Assembly (NCBI GenBank): GCA_036984305.1
Contig: BQWY01000001.1
Location: forward strand, 3,245,501-3,309,500
Reading direction: 5' to 3'
DNA length: 64,000 nucleotides
Source: Nitrospira sp.
Lineage (GTDB): Bacteria; Nitrospirota; Nitrospiria; Nitrospirales; Nitrospiraceae
Below, one piece after another: positions 6,472 to 14,448 of this stretch (position 1 is the stretch's first letter; the number at the start of each line of letters is the position of its first letter). The position numbers and the translations under genes were made by a program. The notes beneath the pieces are model-generated. The model was not told the origin of the DNA and ran no database searches. It saw only the letters and a program-made list of their open reading frames with translations.

Positions 6472-6876
6472 ATGGACTCGACGGTTGACCGAGAGCACCA
6501 TCGTCGGTTTCTTCAAGCATTCCAGCGGGAACACCTGACGTGCGGAATGGGCGGGTGCCAGGGACCTCTGGAAGTCACGGATATGACGATGCCCCAGGCG
6601 AAAGTGAAAACGTACGAAGCCGTGTGCACGCGTTGCCACCGCTCGGAAACCATCATGGGCAACGAACAGACGTCGCCACCGTGGGACATCGGCTCCGTCA
6701 CGATGATGGCGGAGGCCCATCTCCTCCACGATCAACCGGCCTGTCCTTTCGATGACACGCCGATCACGTTTACCTCGTTGCCGAATCCGCGTCGCAAAGC
6801 ACGGTATCGACTGTCGTGCGCGTACTGCGGACGTACCACCGAGATGGACTGGCCGCCCCCCGAAGCCAAAATGTAA
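6472..6876 (+). CDS. Cys-rich zinc-ribbon-like hypothetical protein
   Basis: A 134-residue soluble protein with several metal-ligand-like pairs: TCGMGGCQG near the start, CTRCHRSE in the middle and CAYCGRTTEMDW near the C-terminus. The CxxC pairs suggest one or two zinc ribbons. ATG 6472 follows CGGGAGGGAGT. It is the last gene of the plus-strand run and lies 24 bases after the SDR gene. I do not recognise a named family, and no catalytic motif is visible. Confidence 0.72.
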   Translation: MDSTVDREHHRRFLQAFQREHLTCGMGGCQGPLEVTDMTMPQAKVKTYEAVCTRCHRSETIMGNEQTSPPWDIGSVTMMAEAHLLHDQPACPFDDTPITFTSLPNPRRKARYRLSCAYCGRTTEMDWPPPEAKM

Positions 6877-7204: not shown

Positions 7205-7528
7205 CTATTGGCCGAACGCCTTCTTCAGCAGCGGCTCCATTTCACCCTTGGCTGCCATGGGATCGAGAATGTCCGTGTCCCCGTAGAACTGTCCGTCGAT
7301 AAAGACTTTCGGCAAGGTCGGCCAATTCGTCATTTTCGTGAGTGCTTCACGTTTGGCGGGTTGCGACAGCACATCCACCACTTCATAAGGATATCCGTAC
7401 CGGTCGAAGAACTGCATAGTTTCCCGCGTAAAACCACACATCGGCATCTGCTTGGTTCCCTTGCCATAGACCAAGATCTTGTGGGCTTTGATCTCTTGCT
7501 CGATCTCTTGCTGGATTGGATCTGTCAT
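7205..7528 (-). CDS. grxD: monothiol glutaredoxin, Grx4 type, with CGFT active site
   Basis: A 107-residue Grx4-family protein. Members bind a glutathione-ligated [2Fe-2S] cluster as a dimer and pass it on with BolA partners. Visible motifs are KGTKQMPMCGFT (active Cys31), WPTLPKVFIDGQF (cis-Pro) and GDTDIL. The usual CGFS motif is CGFT here. The ATG at 7528 follows AGGAGGAG by five bases. The gene is 11 bases downstream of bolA on the same strand, supporting a Grx4-BolA complex for Fe-S or iron sensing. Confidence 0.93.
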   Translation of the reverse strand: MTDPIQQEIEQEIKAHKILVYGKGTKQMPMCGFTRETMQFFDRYGYPYEVVDVLSQPAKREALTKMTNWPTLPKVFIDGQFYGDTDILDPMAAKGEMEPLLKKAFGQ

Positions 7529-7539
7529 CGCTCTCCTCC

Positions 7540-7779
7540 TTATTGCTCGTCCGGGGTCTTTGCCGTCAATTCGAGCGCGTGGATGCGGCCGTCTTTGAGT
7601 GGAGCATCCAAGGCCTGGTAAATCATGCGGTGCCGGTCCAGAAGCGACTTCCCGGAAAAGTGCGACGAGACGACGACGACCTTCAAATGATCCATCGTCC
7701 CGGTTTTGTCCGAGACCGTCACGATCGCATCCGGCAAGCTCATTCTCACGTGGTTGGTCAGGGCGTCTGGAGTTATCAT
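7540..7779 (-). CDS. bolA: BolA-family protein (IbaG/BolA type)
   Basis: A 79-residue protein with the BolA fold. VVVVSSHFSGKSLLDRHRMIYQAL contains the conserved F-x-G-K-x-x-x-x-R-H helix-turn region, and GRIHALELTAKTP forms the C-terminal strand. BolA proteins ligate Fe-S clusters together with monothiol glutaredoxins. The frame is open upstream to 8148, but AGGAGG about 11 bases before the ATG at 7779 and the family length fix this start. It precedes the Grx4 gene in a two-gene operon. Confidence 0.92.
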   Translation of the reverse strand: MITPDALTNHVRMSLPDAIVTVSDKTGTMDHLKVVVVSSHFSGKSLLDRHRMIYQALDAPLKDGRIHALELTAKTPDEQ

Positions 7780-8579
7780 CGCACAGGAAACCTCCTTCTT
7801 CACAAATTTCGCGCGTCGAAAAGGTATCGTATCACGGCCAGGGAACTCAACCACATGGCTATCCGTCCATTTATCCCCCAATAAGCTCGTTCCATGGGCC
7901 GGACTTGCTGGATATTTCTTCGCAGGCCGAATCTCCAGGACCATCCAGAGTCGTCCGGCATTATACCCGTCCACATGGCATCTCCGTATCTCTTCGTCTC
8001 GGTCTGTATCATAGTTGATACTATATCCGTTTGGATCTGGGATCGTACGACCGTGGGGACACCGCCCAGGCAGACAGTATCTGATTGATTTGGCGTCACT
8101 GTCTCGAAAACGCATCCATATTTTCGGTAGGCATCCACCTCGTGGCACTTCAGTTGCTCTATGCAGCGACGTCCGAAGGCACGCACCACTACAACAAAAG
8201 AGAAGACCGGAACGAAGTCCATGGTAGTAACGCCCGACTCACTGACTCTCACGGCTCTGTTGATCGTCCTCGCATCTTGCTGGATGGCAGCACGGTTGTG
8301 GTAAGCGGGACGAGTGGTGCGTTCCCCCAGCATCCGAAAACGGAGTGGCTCCTGCATGGTGGTGGATTTCAACCAACTCTGGTGGATATGGGCCATGACG
8401 AGGACACTGTGCATAGTGCGCAATTTGAGCGATTACAGGCGGATGTGGCGACCAAGCATCCGGATCCTAGCGGCATTGATTTTGCTGTTCTGTACTAGCA
8501 TTACATAGCACGCGGCCATCGCCAGTGTGATGAACATGACACGCATCGCGGTCCGTACAACATCAATAGGAGGGATGCC
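7780..8579. other. 800-base stretch without a recognised gene
   Basis: This is the longest unassigned stretch in the window. It separates the bolA-grx operon (minus strand) from a receiver-protein gene (plus strand), so it must hold both promoters. It looks richer in A and T than its surroundings. Open frames exist on both strands (minus 7800-8423; plus 8085-8498), but their composition is not protein-like and no domain is recognisable. Two short plus-strand frames end in hydrophobic helices: 27 codons at 8221-8304 and 50 codons at 8356-8508. Neither has a strong ribosome site. It may be a decayed gene or a long regulatory region. Confidence 0.5.
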
Positions 8580-9017
8580 ATGACCGAGTATAAGTCAGAC
8601 CTGATGTTCGGAGCCTCTACCGGAAACGGACGAGTCCTGGTCGTGGACGACGAGCCGGACATTCGAAAGGTGGTCCGGATGACGCTTCAAAAGGCCGGGT
8701 ACGATGTCCTGGAAGCGGAGAACGGCGAAAAGGCGATCGAAATCATCAACAGCGGAGAGAATCGCGTCATGCTCGACGTGCTGGTCTGCGATATCCGCAT
8801 GCCAAAGATCAATGGGGTCGAGGCGATCGCGTACTTCCGCCAAAACTACAAGAGGGTACCGATCATCGTCTTGACCGGATTCCCGGACACGGAAATGGCA
8901 TCGGCTTTCCTCCGGGACGGCGGCATTGTCGATTACTTGGTCAAGCCCGTGGAAGGCGAGAAACTGAAGGCCGCCGTGGCCCGCGCGATGGACCAGCGCG
9001 AGGTCGCACACCTGTAG
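8580..9017 (+). CDS. single-domain response regulator (CheY-like receiver)
   Basis: A 145-residue protein made of one receiver domain and no output domain. It has the acidic pocket VVDDEPD, a phospho-acceptor Asp in LVCDIRMPK, the switch Thr in IVLTGFPD and the conserved Lys in YLVKPVEG. ATG 8580 follows AGGAGGG by five bases. It lies upstream of two histidine kinase genes and probably acts as a phospho-relay partner or by protein contact. A strong hairpin at 9039-9081 separates it from the next gene. Confidence 0.93.
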   Translation: MTEYKSDLMFGASTGNGRVLVVDDEPDIRKVVRMTLQKAGYDVLEAENGEKAIEIINSGENRVMLDVLVCDIRMPKINGVEAIAYFRQNYKRVPIIVLTGFPDTEMASAFLRDGGIVDYLVKPVEGEKLKAAVARAMDQREVAHL

Positions 9018-9038
9018 CCTCTCCGTCGCATCCCTCTC

Positions 9039-9081
9039 CGCCGGTGCGAGGACGTCACTATCAAGTCCTTCCGCACCGGCG
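9039..9081. terminator. strong hairpin between receiver and kinase genes
   Basis: The arms CGCCGGTGCG (9039-9048) and CGCACCGGCG (9072-9081) pair perfectly and continue with AGGAC/GTCCT (9049-9053/9065-9069), leaving an 11-base loop and a two-base bulge. No T tract follows, so it may be an attenuator or RNA-stability element rather than a classical intrinsic terminator. Confidence 0.6.
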
Positions 9082-9122
9082 AGGGTACGTTCAGGGACGC
9101 CAGGCTTCGCGGAGCGAGCCGC

Positions 9123-10163
9123 ATGACGTTGATTGCGGACCACACGACCCCCATCACGATCGTCATTCTCGGTGCCGGGCGCGGCGGGACGAGCTTTCTG
9201 GAGCTCCTCCGACACCTCCGGGGCGTTCGCATAGCCGGAATCGCCGATAAACGGCTCGACGCGCCGGGGCTCCAACGAGCCGCGGACCTGAACATTCCGA
9301 TCAGCTATGATCTGGAACCCCTGATCGAAGCCCCGGATATCAACCTCATTCTCGATGTCACGGGCGACCCCAGTGTCGAGCACGTCATCAGACGGCATAA
9401 GTCGCCCGCGACGGAGACACTCAGTGGATCGGCAGTCCGCCTGCTGTGGCAACTCGTGCAACACGAATCCCAGCTGCAGGCGGAGATCTCCCATGCGGAC
9501 AAGCTGGCCTCCATCGGTTCGTTCGCGGCCGGCATCGCACATGACATCAACAACCCCCTCTATTTGATCCTTGGCCTGGCGGAGGACTTGATGGAACAGT
9601 CTGACCCGGCCGTGATCAAGGAGCATGCCCGCGATATCATTGCGGCGGTCAAGCGCACGAGCCGGATCTGCACGGATTTGACGCGCTACGCACGACGCGA
9701 CCGGGACGGCACAACCGGGACGAGCGACATCCACGTGAAACTGGACGAGGCACTCAAAATCGCCCGGTATGCCTTGCTGTTCCAGGACATGACCGTCAAA
9801 CTCGCGTACGACGCCAAACACCGATTGGTCCGCGCGACACCCGACGACGTCCTGCACATGTTCGTCAATCTCATTACCAATGCCATCCATGCCATGGACG
9901 GGCACGGCGTCCTGACTCTGAGCACGCGAGATCGAGACGGCATGGTCGAGGTTGGCATTGCCGACACCGGCAGCGGGATTCCTCCCGACGTACGCGAGCA
10001 CATATTTGACGCCTTCTTCACGACCAAGGAGCCCGGGAAAGGCACCGGCCTGGGGCTTTATAATGTAAAAACGATACTGGAAAAGATCGACGGGACCATC
10101 GCCGTGGAGAGCGAGGTGGGAAAGGGCACCACCATTCACCTCCGGCTACCCGCTGTGTCGTAA
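9123..10163 (+). CDS. sensor histidine kinase with N-terminal Rossmann (NAD-binding-like) domain
   Basis: A 346-residue cytoplasmic kinase with no membrane segment. Residues 10-110 form a dinucleotide-binding-like domain (VILGAGRGGTSFLELL, VAGIADKR-like IAGIADKRLDAPG, LILDVTGDPSVEHVI). The HisKA H-box follows (GIAHDINNPL), then the N-box (LITNAIHAMDG) and ATP lid (DTGSGIPPDV, FDAFFTTKEPGKGTGLGL). In place of a PAS or Cache sensor the protein carries a nucleotide-binding fold, which suggests sensing of NAD(H) or a related cofactor; this is inference. The likely partners are the upstream receiver protein and the downstream kinase. Confidence 0.88.
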   Translation: MTLIADHTTPITIVILGAGRGGTSFLELLRHLRGVRIAGIADKRLDAPGLQRAADLNIPISYDLEPLIEAPDINLILDVTGDPSVEHVIRRHKSPATETLSGSAVRLLWQLVQHESQLQAEISHADKLASIGSFAAGIAHDINNPLYLILGLAEDLMEQSDPAVIKEHARDIIAAVKRTSRICTDLTRYARRDRDGTTGTSDIHVKLDEALKIARYALLFQDMTVKLAYDAKHRLVRATPDDVLHMFVNLITNAIHAMDGHGVLTLSTRDRDGMVEVGIADTGSGIPPDVREHIFDAFFTTKEPGKGTGLGLYNVKTILEKIDGTIAVESEVGKGTTIHLRLPAVS

Positions 10164-10206
10164 GTCGCACCGGGCCGTCCCGCAATTCACCGCCCGCACG
10201 AATCGT

Positions 10207-12678
10207 ATGACGACACCGGCCGACGTGTCCCCTCGCCCGCGCAGGTTGGGGCTCAAGGGTAAGCTCATCGTCTCCATGTTGCTGGTGGGGATCATCCCTC
10301 TCCTCGCGGGCTTGATTCTCGCCTTCCTGCAAGGATCTCAAGAGATCCGCGACGTCAGCGGAGAAAGTTTCAAGGCACTGGCGATCGAGGCATCCCGCAA
10401 GCTCGACTTGCTCGTCGCCGAGGAGGTCGCCCGCACCTCTCGCATTGCGTCGGATCCCGCCGTCATCCAGATGTTGGAGCAGCACCGCGACGTTCTGCTG
10501 GCACTCTCAGTGGAGCAGCGAGCCGCCATGATGGCGCGCGCGCTTGCCGAGTGGGAATCTCAGAATCCCGAGGCCATTAAAACGGTGACGGAACATCCAC
10601 TCAGCCGTCTCCTCCAGGAGCATTTTTCCGGAGCGCGGAGCGAGCGCGATCAGTTGCTCCCCCACGTCGTGCGCGCGGCGACGAGGATGTTGTATCTCAC
10701 CGACATCCAGGGCCAGCTCGTCGCCTCGCTGACGACCATGCCGCCGTTTTCCAACGCCGAGGCGGTCTGGTGGCGAGGAGCTTTCAACCGGGGCGTCGGC
10801 CGCCTGTACATTGAGGATCTGCACTTCGACGAGCGGCTCAAGACCTATGTGGTTAGTATCTCGGTTCCAATCATGGATAGTCTCCGGTACGAAGCCGTCG
10901 GTGTGCTGCATCGCGTGATCGATGCCAAAGAGTTTTTTTCCCCCTCCACGCATCCGATTCGATTTGGGAAGACCGGGCATGTCATGCTGATCGACAGCCA
11001 CGGCACAGTGCTGAGCTGTCCGATCTTGCCAACGGGTGTCAAGTTGTCCGATCCCTCCATTATCCCCCTCGTAACCTCGATGGAGCCCGGATGGGTGCAG
11101 GCCCCCAGCGATGGGCATGGAGGCACAAGCAAGTCCATCATAGGTTTCTCGCCGCTTCCAGAGACGAGTCGAGCCACCAATGGTTCCATGCAGGGAGGCG
11201 GCTGGCACACGTTCGTCTGGCAAAGTTCGGAGGAGCTGTTCGCACCCGTTAAACACCTCTTCACGTGGATGTCGATTTTCGGCACCCTGGCCTTGGCTCT
11301 GTTGGGGGCACTGGGAGCATTTGCGGCTGGCCGGATCGTCACGCCGGTCCGTAATCTCCAGGCAGCCGCCCGCGCCATCGGTCGCGGCGAACTGAAAGAA
11401 CCGATCGTCGTGCAGACCGGAGACGAAATCGAAGACCTTGCGGATGAAATCAACCGCATGAACGCCCAGATCGAGCAGTCCTTCGCTGGGCTCGAATCGC
11501 AAGTCGAGTTGAAAAGCCAAGAGGTGCAGATCCTGCAGCGATCCACCGACCAGATCCTCGACGCCGTGCCAGCACCCATTTTTCTGTTGGACCATGAGAT
11601 GCAGGTCCACTACATGAATCAGGCCTCCCGGCAAGCCTTCGCACTGGCAGACACGGGCGGCCGCAGTCCGCAGTTGTTCGAACTACTCCAGCTTCCCGCG
11701 TCGGCCCAAGAGCGGCTCTCGCGGGAACTGGCCATCCTCGGCAACGGGCACGCCGGCGGATCAACTCACCTCCCGGTGGCGGACCGACCCGCGGCCGCAC
11801 GAGACCCGCTGGCTCAGTCGGCACGACAGGAAGAGCCTTCGGCGCGGCGCGAACTGCAAATCGGCAGCGTCGTCTACCGATATGAATGGTTTCCATTGGC
11901 GGCGCGCGGTGCCGGACAGGCTCATGTCGGCCTGGTCCTCCGGAACGCGACCGACGAGAGCCGGCTTCAGGATCAATTGATCGAGGCGGAGAAGAGCGGC
12001 AGTCTCGGCGTCCTCACCGCGGGTATTGGGCATGAACTCAACAACCCATTGTTCGGCATTCTCGGCCTCGGGGAAGCCATTCAGCATGAGACCAATCCCG
12101 ACCAGGTCAAAGAGTTTGCCAAGAACATCGTCCAACACGGCAAGCGCATGGCATCGATTATTCGTGACTTTACCGGTGTGAGCCGGGCGGATGCGCAAGA
12201 GCGCACGGTCCCGGTTGATCTGGCTGCTCAACTGGACCAAGCCATTTCCATGGTTCAACGGGCGACACCGGACTGGCAGGTCGAAATACAACGGGAATAT
12301 GGTGCGGTTCCGGCCATCCAGGCGGTACCGGAGGATATTCAACAGGCGTTGGCCAACGTCCTGTTCAACGCAGTCCAAGCGATGAAGGGCCGTGGGCAAC
12401 TGACGCTTGGAATTCAACGCACGCCACTGTTAATTCAGCTCTCGATCACCGATTCGGGCCACGGGATCGCGTCACACCAGTTGGGAAAAGTCTTCGACCC
12501 CTTTTTCACGACCAAAGAACAGGGACAAGGAAGCGGACTGGGGCTGACCATTGCCCGACGCCTCCTGATGAAGAGCGGGGGGCACATCCGTCTCGAAAGC
12601 GTGCAAGGTCAAGGGACCACCTGTCTCATCACGTTTCCCATGCCCAAAGATGCTCCACGCAAAGAGGTGGCGCCATGA
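10207..12678 (+). CDS. membrane sensor histidine kinase: Cache-HAMP-PAS-HisKA-HATPase
   Basis: An 823-residue kinase. A first membrane helix lies near residues 18-40 (SMLLVGIIPLLAGLILAF), followed by a roughly 300-residue periplasmic Cache-type sensor and a second helix (FGTLALALLGALGAFAAG). HAMP comes next, then a PAS domain starting at QILDAVPAPIFLLDHEM, the H-box GIGHELNNPLFGIL, the N-box VLFNAVQAMKGRG and the ATP motifs DSGHGIAS and FDPFFTTKEQGQGSGLGL. It overlaps the next gene by ATGA. Linkage to a soluble kinase, a receiver and a heme protein suggests one pathway. The ligand is unknown. Confidence 0.92.
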   Translation: MTTPADVSPRPRRLGLKGKLIVSMLLVGIIPLLAGLILAFLQGSQEIRDVSGESFKALAIEASRKLDLLVAEEVARTSRIASDPAVIQMLEQHRDVLLALSVEQRAAMMARALAEWESQNPEAIKTVTEHPLSRLLQEHFSGARSERDQLLPHVVRAATRMLYLTDIQGQLVASLTTMPPFSNAEAVWWRGAFNRGVGRLYIEDLHFDERLKTYVVSISVPIMDSLRYEAVGVLHRVIDAKEFFSPSTHPIRFGKTGHVMLIDSHGTVLSCPILPTGVKLSDPSIIPLVTSMEPGWVQAPSDGHGGTSKSIIGFSPLPETSRATNGSMQGGGWHTFVWQSSEELFAPVKHLFTWMSIFGTLALALLGALGAFAAGRIVTPVRNLQAAARAIGRGELKEPIVVQTGDEIEDLADEINRMNAQIEQSFAGLESQVELKSQEVQILQRSTDQILDAVPAPIFLLDHEMQVHYMNQASRQAFALADTGGRSPQLFELLQLPASAQERLSRELAILGNGHAGGSTHLPVADRPAAARDPLAQSARQEEPSARRELQIGSVVYRYEWFPLAARGAGQAHVGLVLRNATDESRLQDQLIEAEKSGSLGVLTAGIGHELNNPLFGILGLGEAIQHETNPDQVKEFAKNIVQHGKRMASIIRDFTGVSRADAQERTVPVDLAAQLDQAISMVQRATPDWQVEIQREYGAVPAIQAVPEDIQQALANVLFNAVQAMKGRGQLTLGIQRTPLLIQLSITDSGHGIASHQLGKVFDPFFTTKEQGQGSGLGLTIARRLLMKSGGHIRLESVQGQGTTCLITFPMPKDAPRKEVAP

Positions 12679-13277
12679 CGTCGCATCTCCGATCACTGTA
12701 CGTGCGAAGCTTCGGTTTCGCCCTGGCTGCTCTTCTGTGTTTGCCGACCGCATCCCTGAGGGGAGCCTCGAAAGACGCCGCGCTTTTGCCAGTGCTCGCT
12801 CCCGAGCGAGTCGCCGACTTTCTGCATGCCATCATCGAAGCCGATCGTAGTTTCTACACCTCGCAAGTGGTCAATCGCATGCAGGAACGCGGCATCATTC
12901 GCGCCACGGAGCACTGGGAGAATGACGGCACGCTCCCCCTCCCCGCCCAGTTTCTGCAGCACTCGGGACAGATGGTAGCGGAGCAAGGCAGCGGGATTCG
13001 ATTTCGACTGATCGGTTTGTACCCGATCAATCAGAAGAACAGTCCCGCCACGTCGTTCGAACGAAAAGCGCTCGAGTCATTTTCGTCGGCACCGTTAGAA
13101 CCAACCAGGGGTGTCGTCGCGAGCGGGAAGAAGCGGTACTTTCAGGCGATCTATCCGGATCGGGCCATCTCCGCAGCGTGTGTCAGTTGTCACAATCAGC
13201 ATCCGCTCAGCCCCAAACGGGATTTCAAGCTGAACGACATCGTCGGCGCGATCGCGATCACGATACCGCTGGAATAA
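12675..13277 (+). CDS. secreted DUF3365 (Tll0287-like) heme-binding protein
   Basis: A 200-residue exported protein. An N-terminal signal peptide (FALAALLCLPTASLRG) is followed by a DUF3365-type sensor-like domain and a single c-type heme site CVSCHNQHP near residue 177. DUF3365 is a PAS-like fold found in heme redox sensors. The start ATG overlaps the kinase stop codon in ATGA, which indicates translational coupling. It could present the periplasmic redox or gas signal to the kinase encoded just upstream; this role is inferred from context. Confidence 0.87.
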   Translation: MTSHLRSLYVRSFGFALAALLCLPTASLRGASKDAALLPVLAPERVADFLHAIIEADRSFYTSQVVNRMQERGIIRATEHWENDGTLPLPAQFLQHSGQMVAEQGSGIRFRLIGLYPINQKNSPATSFERKALESFSSAPLEPTRGVVASGKKRYFQAIYPDRAISAACVSCHNQHPLSPKRDFKLNDIVGAIAITIPLE

Positions 13278-13296: not shown

Positions 13297-14448
13297 TTAC
13301 GCGGCGGGAGTTGCGGCGGCGGGCGGCGCGCCCTGGTATTCTTCGCGATAGATCTGCAGGGCCGTGAGGAGCAGGGCCACGACAATCGGCCCCAGGAAGA
13401 CTCCGATCACACCGTAGACGGACAGGCCACCGAGTACGCTGAAGATCAACAGAAAGACCGGTATCTTTGCCTCTTGCCCGATGAGCATGGGTCGGAGGAA
13501 CTGATCGACCGTCGACACGACGCCGCCGCCCCACAACAGTAAGGCCACTCCCTTCCAGGTGGGCCCGGCCCACAAGAGCCACATCCCAAGGGGAACCCAC
13601 ACCAGAGCAGTCCCTCCAAACGGTAACGGAGCGAGGATCGTCGTGAGGGCGGTGAGCCCGACCGGCATCGGTGCACCGAGCGCGAGATACGCTAACCCCG
13701 CGAGCACCCCCTGTACGATCGCGGTCACCACCACCCCCTTGACGACCGCGCGCATCGTCTGGTCCAGTCTGGAAAAGATCTTGGCCTTGTGCGATGCATC
13801 GAGCGGGACCAAATCGTACAAGCCGGCAACCAATTCGCGTCCATCACGGAAAAAGAAGAACAGCGTCACGATCATGATCAGCGTATTGGCCACGAATGCG
13901 AACACGTTCCTCACGAACCCCGTCAGGCTGCCGACCAGGAATTGACTCATGGTATTAGCGCTGGAGATCAGCGCATCGCCGAGGTTGCCTTCCACGTCCT
14001 GTCCCAGCCGAGCCACCACTCGCCCCATCAGTCTGCCGATCAAGGGCAACTGCTCCAGTTCCTGAGGAAGACGCTCCAGCCCTCCGCTGGCGACCCACTC
14101 ACGAATCGCCACTTCCGACGCTGCAGCTTCGCGCACGATGACGATTCCCGTCCAGACAAGCGGCAAGACCCCCAGCAGCATGATGCCGAAGGTCAACAGA
14201 CCGGCTGCGAGCGAGACCCGCCCGCCCAGTTTGGCGGTCAGCCGCGTATGAAGCGGAAACATCAGATGCGCGAGGATCGTGGCCCATACCATCGCGAGTA
14301 GAAAGGGCCGAAACATGAGCGCCAGTTGATAGAGCAGGAACAGGAGGATGCCGAAAAAGACCAGCGCGAAGATTTGTTGGCGTGAGACTATGGGGAGTCG
14401 CGTATCCAAGGCAGTACGTACATTACAAAAACCCTTGTCGATTGTCAC
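13297..14448 (-). CDS. AI-2E family permease (PerM/YdiK-like)
   Basis: A 383-residue inner-membrane protein with about eight hydrophobic segments. The opening pair is IFALVFFGILLFLLYQLAL and PFLLAMVWATILAHLMFPLH, and the family-typical C-terminal part contains LPFGGTALVWVP and FLRPMLIGQEAKIPVFLLI. Family members include AI-2 exporters, Na+/H+ antiporters and proteins of unknown substrate. The N-terminal 20 residues are hydrophilic and an internal start is possible. It converges with the DUF3365 gene, with only 19 bases between the stops. Confidence 0.88.
   Translation of the reverse strand: MTIDKGFCNVRTALDTRLPIVSRQQIFALVFFGILLFLLYQLALMFRPFLLAMVWATILAHLMFPLHTRLTAKLGGRVSLAAGLLTFGIMLLGVLPLVWTGIVIVREAAASEVAIREWVASGGLERLPQELEQLPLIGRLMGRVVARLGQDVEGNLGDALISSANTMSQFLVGSLTGFVRNVFAFVANTLIMIVTLFFFFRDGRELVAGLYDLVPLDASHKAKIFSRLDQTMRAVVKGVVVTAIVQGVLAGLAYLALGAPMPVGLTALTTILAPLPFGGTALVWVPLGMWLLWAGPTWKGVALLLWGGGVVSTVDQFLRPMLIGQEAKIPVFLLIFSVLGGLSVYGVIGVFLGPIVVALLLTALQIYREEYQGAPPAAATPAA

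Follow-up and report, generated by a model that had tools for sequence, protein, structure and literature searches.

A Nitrospira two-component operon with a Rossmann-type kinase input domain, a candidate reader of NAD(H)

The window analyzed here is a stretch of 64,000 nucleotides from a Nitrospira sp. genome (assembly GCA_036984305.1, contig BQWY01000001.1, positions 3,245,501 to 3,309,500 of the forward strand), and our subject is a four-gene signaling operon within it. The operon encodes a stand-alone receiver (RR), a soluble histidine kinase (HK1) with a predicted Rossmann-type sensor, a membrane histidine kinase (HK2), and a heme protein of the Tll0287/DUF3365 family. In window coordinates, its features are as follows.

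8580-9017, + strand: RR, stand-alone receiver of 145 residues; Response_reg (E=3.8e-28) is the only family above cut-off
9123-10163, + strand: HK1, cytosolic HisKA histidine kinase of 346 residues with an N-terminal Rossmann domain
9150-9476, + strand: HK1 Rossmann-type input domain, residues 10-118, with GAGRGG at 17-22, D42 after beta-2, DVTG at 78-81, and G102
9480-10163, + strand: HK1 kinase core, with the H-box HDINNP (residue 140), N-box, and G-boxes
10207-12678, + strand: HK2, membrane histidine kinase of 823 residues, with dCache_1, HAMP, PAS_4, HisKA, and HATPase_c
12675-13277, + strand: Tll0287/DUF3365 (sCache_heme) protein of 200 residues, probably exported, PF11845, with one CVSCH

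The four open reading frames that an earlier note had reported for this DNA are all present at the coordinates it gave, on the + strand, and the last is indeed a c-type-heme Cache protein. HK2 and DUF3365 share 4 bp, the stop of the first overlapping the start of the second, and the translational coupling proposed there is therefore plausible.

RR opens with a conserved N-terminal extension (MTEYKSDLMFG..GNGRVL) and keeps the catalytic residues of a receiver: the phospho-acceptor D in CDIRMP (70-75), LTG at 98, and VKP at 121. With the Asp, Thr/Ser, Lys triad present and no output domain, it is by features a CheY/DivK-like stand-alone receiver. Across a conservation sample of 35 HK1 loci from two families, one of them (L164; L and G numbers are our locus and genome handles) from a sister family, it is unusually conserved, at 56-92% identity and mostly 74-92%. 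HK1 matches HisKA (7e-10) and HATPase_c (8e-26) and has a complete set of kinase motifs (HDINNP 140, NLITNA 249, FFTTK 298, GTGLGL 307); apart from its sensor, its sequence is that of a normal HisKA kinase. HK2 has intact catalytic motifs and a dCache_1 match (E=5e-12) whose position is predicted to be periplasmic. Hydrophobicity indicates two transmembrane segments in HK2 and none in HK1 or RR. Both kinase cores score best against AtoS; unlike AtoS/NtrB-type kinases, HK1 has a Rossmann sensor and a partner that is a receiver without output domain rather than a sigma-54 activator.

The claim that HK1 carries a dinucleotide-binding-like domain is borne out by motif, sequence profile, and fold search, which together support a Rossmann domain with an NAD-type signature. 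In a 38-sequence alignment of the domain, 12 columns are invariant, among them G17, G19, G21, G22, G81, and G102. Among 43 relatives fused to varied effectors, the GxGxxG motif after beta-1 is nearly universal (G17 in 43/43, G19 and G22 in 41/43 each), and position 42, at the end of beta-2, is acidic in all 43 (D in 34, E in 9), as in NAD-type domains. The family profile matches acetaldehyde dehydrogenases in the PDB (6.7e-5 for 7z3s, to 1.7e-3) and the NADH sensor Rex (5zz5, E=5e-4). Several relatives exceed Pfam cut-offs for dinucleotide-binding families: GFO_IDH_MocA at 32.4 bits in a receiver insertion, and NAD_binding_3 at 30.5 in a sigma-54 activator, 28.2 in a methyl-accepting chemotaxis protein (MCP), and 26.0 in a HisKA_3 kinase.

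The earlier note had proposed structure prediction of the kinase N-terminus and comparison with NAD-binding folds. AlphaFold2, run from single sequences without alignment, gave alternating beta and alpha elements for the HK1 domain at a mean predicted local distance difference test (pLDDT) score of 60, a low confidence. Searched with this model, Foldseek returned the acetaldehyde dehydrogenase 1nvm first (1.9e-4), in a list made up mostly of NAD(P)-dependent oxidoreductases with Gal80p lower down; VIA-align reached Z scores up to 8.8, modest by the tool's own note. NAD-binding folds are thus the nearest neighbors, at low model confidence, and the profile and fold searches point to the same enzyme family.

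The C-terminal catalytic/substrate domain of dehydrogenases is absent, the signaling helix and HisKA domain follow directly, and we therefore do not regard the domain as an enzyme of the dehydrogenase kind. By these feature tests, it classifies as an NAD-type Rossmann domain and not as a dehydrogenase.

Several results weigh against this assignment. Beyond the low confidence of the model, residues 12-88 of HK1 itself yield only sub-threshold Pfam matches (NAD_binding_3 0.036, GFO_IDH_MocA 0.04), and residues 1-115 taken alone give NAD-binding matches that are all below threshold. Some distant members of the GAF-kinase type lack one motif glycine, and the family is weakly similar to PglD/NeuD-type domains, which bind UDP-sugars. 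Conservation is pocket-centered when glycines are included (p=0.0005) and not significantly so when they are left out (p=0.37); the case for a pocket consequently depends on the GxGxxG motif together with the acidic residue.

The same domain occurs on a wide range of signaling proteins. Its effectors include HisKA and HisKA_3 kinases, a sigma-54 activator, GAF-GGDEF and GGDEF-EAL proteins, GAF-PAS hybrid kinases of about 940-1140 residues, and an MCP. One genome (G258) combines four of these arrangements, on a sigma-54 activator (L155:4228-5538), a GAF-GGDEF protein (L154:3658-5028), a GGDEF-EAL protein (L156:3684-5240), and a HisKA_3-type kinase (L153). A second Rossmann kinase, of HisKA_3 type, lies beside a LuxR-type regulator in L044:4846-6030 (the source genome itself, contig C1 ~64845-66029), L048, L051, and L165, and is linked across the class to serine hydroxymethyltransferase (SHMT) and NrdR genes. 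Outside the phylum, the distribution rests on a single Clostridia protein, a cytosolic MCP of Acetoanaerobium noterae (L086:4022-4804); the 2.6-Mb record that holds this gene is labeled a plasmid and is probably a chromosome. No Pfam or NCBIfam model covers the domain as a unit in scans of HK1 and its relatives, and our literature searches, whose coverage of subscription papers was incomplete, found no description of it. Judged by sequence, the domain is a portable, uncatalogued input module used family-wide in sensory effectors, and the whole system is a variant of two-component signaling with an undescribed input-domain family.

Three Nitrospiraceae genomes and a sister family carry a receiver into which the Rossmann domain has been inserted. 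Receivers with a complete insert are encoded at the following positions.

L045:4325-5167, - strand: receiver with complete Rossmann insert
L047:3697-4491, - strand: receiver with complete Rossmann insert
L151:5145-5939, - strand: receiver with complete Rossmann insert

An N-terminal extension of the form MTExK/MSQxK..MFG makes these proteins recognizable as relatives of RR. The insert lies between beta-4 (LTG/MTG) and beta-5 (DGxxxYxVKP), where it replaces most of alpha-4, and the receiver Asp, Thr, and Lys are retained wherever the sequence is readable (the C-terminal end of L046 consists of undetermined letters, N). The insert ends in ..SEKLA, which is the start of the HK1 phosphoacceptor helix and appears to be a remnant of it, and in the tree the Nitrospiraceae inserts cluster with the domains of HK1 (support 81/84, not full). 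From the remnant and the tree grouping together, the sensor was probably transferred out of HK1 and into the receiver with which HK1 is paired. The insertion, as read from these sequences, is a physical link between the Rossmann domain and this receiver; it suggests a direct effect of the inserted domain's ligand state on the receiver. The arrangement is unusual in that a putative ligand-binding domain stands where a phospho-receiver would have most of its alpha-4 region.

The operon itself is conserved around the HK1-RR pair. At all 35 loci the gene immediately upstream of HK1, on the same strand, is RR, and the two thus form an invariant gene pair. HK2 follows HK1 directly at 29/35 loci, and the complete four-gene cluster is present at 27/35, its order recurring in the sister family of the same order (L164). 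Four of the incomplete loci (L072, L080, L081, L082) are on short contigs that break off inside the cluster or shortly past it. With RR preceding HK1 throughout and 27 loci complete, the arrangement is not due to chance. Several genera (L071, L074, L083) have HK1-RR with neither HK2 nor DUF3365, and we therefore regard HK1-RR as the core pair. In two genera, HK2 is split into two open reading frames (L070:2926-5403, L080:3-2338), through frameshift, fission, or sequencing error.

HK1-type domains are widespread in the family. A query of the HK1 N-terminus plus the start of the phosphoacceptor helix found a match at E<=1e-5 in 117/118 Nitrospiraceae-family genomes, a count that takes in both orthologs (47-65% identity) and a more distant second paralog. 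Phylum-wide, 183/295 sampled genomes had a match at the same threshold, a figure that includes a few probable true dehydrogenases among the weakest E-values. L161, a Gfo/Idh enzyme, shows that a match with an E-value around 1e-8 to 1e-10 may be a genuine dehydrogenase. Viral contigs yielded no relative.

Taken together, these observations lead us to favor, with modest confidence, a reading in which HK1 is a soluble kinase with a non-enzymatic Rossmann input of the acetaldehyde-dehydrogenase/Gfo-Idh/Rex type, most likely reading NAD(H) and signaling to RR, with HK2 and the heme protein as a second input. The HK1 domain would most likely bind NAD(H) and sense the cytosolic NADH/NAD+ state, NAD rather than NADP being indicated by the D or E after beta-2 in 43/43 relatives. 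Occupancy would change the adjoining phosphoacceptor helix and so set HK1 activity, and HK1 would then phosphorylate or dephosphorylate the RR encoded just upstream. HK2, through its Cache domain, and the c-heme protein, co-translated and probably exported, may provide an envelope-side input, either redox or nitric oxide (NO), and this arm would most simply feed the same RR. RR, having no output domain, would act by protein contact or through a phosphorelay.

What the envelope arm senses is close to evenly balanced. The operon protein matches PF11845 at 77.7 bits against a cut-off of 24.1 (E=1.6e-21), with CVSCH at 169 and a hydrophobic N-terminus whose maximum mean hydropathy (1.56) lies just under the 1.6 line used. 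Its family profile found no match in the PDB, and its structure model, at pLDDT 37, was unusable. The protein belongs to the sCache_heme family, newly described in a preprint (PMC12889525). There, a stand-alone Cys/His-ligated member behaves in a redox-like manner and does not bind NO tightly, whereas a signaling-fused relative from P. azotoformans without the axial Cys binds NO tightly and releases it slowly. The operon protein resembles the family in its CxxCH, its PF11845 match, and its stand-alone form; it differs in its co-translation with a Cache kinase and in lacking the axial Cys of the redox-type stand-alone members. In 20 aligned DUF3365 orthologs and copies, the mature part holds no Cys beyond CxxCH; the source genome has nine Tll0287/DUF3365 loci, including one MCP fusion and one heading a 716-residue frame, and the axial Cys is absent from all eight that were read (0/8). 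In the absence of this residue, NO sensing is at least as plausible as redox sensing, and an arm in which the heme Cache protein presents its NO state to the HK2 Cache domain is nearly an even proposition. Two published observations (PMC12889525) count on the other side: the NO-type protein is fused to a signaling module while stand-alone members are proposed as redox proteins, and a redox-type protein deprived of its Cys still did not retain NO. Of the earlier suggestion that this arm reads the periplasmic redox state, redox accordingly stands as one of two options, with NO equally or more plausible. NO would also suit a nitrite-handling organism.

The operon is most simply read as having HK2 converge on RR as well, although the helix comparison gave this no support: set against unrelated kinases of the same genome, the phosphoacceptor helices of HK1 and HK2 show no excess similarity to each other. 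This result and the loci at which HK1-RR stands without HK2 and DUF3365 fit an alternative, to which we give less than even odds, in which HK1-RR and HK2-DUF3365 are two systems sharing an operon and HK2 phosphorylates a different response regulator. The tight four-gene order, which extends to a second family, and the fact that no further response regulator gene lies in the conserved operon speak for a single system, as does the HK2 core being the nearest, though tied, relative of the HK1 core within the genome.

Two alternatives to NAD(H) binding by the Rossmann domain are unlikely. The domain may no longer bind a dinucleotide and serve instead in dimerization or protein docking, possibly on RR; it adjoins the phosphoacceptor helix in kinases and sits inside the receiver in the fusions, and the lack of significant pocket-centering in its non-glycine conservation and the lost glycine in a few distant members would fit such a role. 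A pure scaffold would need neither the glycine motif nor the acidic residue, which are retained in at least 41/43 relatives across effector contexts, and the MCP and GGDEF effectors offer no common partner to dock on. Binding of another ligand (NADP(H), CoA, a nucleotide-sugar, a nucleoside, or S-adenosylmethionine), to which the weak similarity to CoA_binding and PglD_N/NeuD and the nucleotide/one-carbon context of the HisKA_3-type (HK3) paralogs beside NrdR and SHMT genes lend some color, is improbable given that NAD(P)-dependent dehydrogenases and Rex score highest among the matches and that the invariably acidic residue after beta-2 speaks against NADP.

The operon is flanked by genes outside it that are shared by many of the 35 loci.

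7205-7528, - strand: glutaredoxin, divergent neighbor, in 24/35 loci
7540-7830, - strand: BolA-like protein, divergent neighbor, start approximate, in 24/35 loci
13297-14448, - strand: AI-2E family transporter, convergent neighbor, in 20/35 loci

A scan for promoters and terminators yielded no information. Farther upstream, window positions 6472-6876 encode a conserved 134-residue protein with several CxxC pairs, one CTRCH, and no clear Pfam family; in most relatives it adjoins a short-chain dehydrogenase/reductase gene.

The source genome (4.35 Mb) holds three same-scoring NxrB-like genes of 434 residues (C1:233101, 2394781, 3494330). Such a set is typical of Nitrospira nitrite oxidizers, and on the strength of these three genes the organism is most likely a Nitrospira-type nitrite oxidizer; PF14711, used as a probe for NxrB, had no match in the genome. 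Two candidate interpretations were rejected. The operon does not track nitrite oxidoreductase, in that several genomes matching only the second kinase also carry an NxrB-like gene, and the sister family (f2) is not Leptospirillum, since it belongs to the same order and carries NxrB-like genes.

Among the closest known systems is Rex, a Rossmann regulator that reads NADH/NAD+. Rex is a winged-helix DNA-binding repressor dimer, whereas the domain here drives kinases, receivers, GGDEF proteins, sigma-54 activators, and MCPs; because the N-terminal winged helix is absent, HK1 would work like Rex without being a member of it. With acetaldehyde dehydrogenase (DmpF/BphJ), Gfo/Idh/MocA, homoserine dehydrogenase, and DapB, the HK1 domain shares the fold, the GxGxxG motif, and the acidic residue after beta-2, and it differs from them in its size of ~110 residues, its missing catalytic/substrate domain, and the signaling helix that follows. 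Gal80p, the yeast NADP-linked regulator of Gfo/Idh fold, is likewise a dehydrogenase-fold protein turned regulator, but one that still has both domains of the dehydrogenase fold and works by binding to an activator of transcription. KidO of Caulobacter is an NADH-binding oxidoreductase homolog that controls a two-component pathway, as a separate protein rather than a fused input domain (PMC7083601). The word Rossmann does not appear in a 2022 review of c-di-GMP sensory domains, whose table of oxygen and redox sensors has no NAD-binding entry. As far as our literature searches show, it has not been established that two-component systems or c-di-GMP enzymes sense the NAD(H) pool directly.

The module probably serves cells as a gauge of the redox or energy state of their interior. 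Tentatively, and at somewhat less than even confidence, we extend this to a general proposal: that a widespread, uncatalogued bacterial domain enables kinases, receivers, c-di-GMP enzymes, sigma-54 activators, and chemoreceptors to read NADH/NAD+ directly, and that in one branch the sensor has moved into the signaling face of a receiver, gated by both phosphorylation and NAD(H). As the domain is small, soluble, and portable and has a clear candidate ligand, the question is directly testable. Reverse electron flow makes NADH costly for Nitrospira-type nitrifiers, and it would make sense for these organisms to use an NAD(H)-wired kinase, combined with a heme sensor at the envelope, as a master control.

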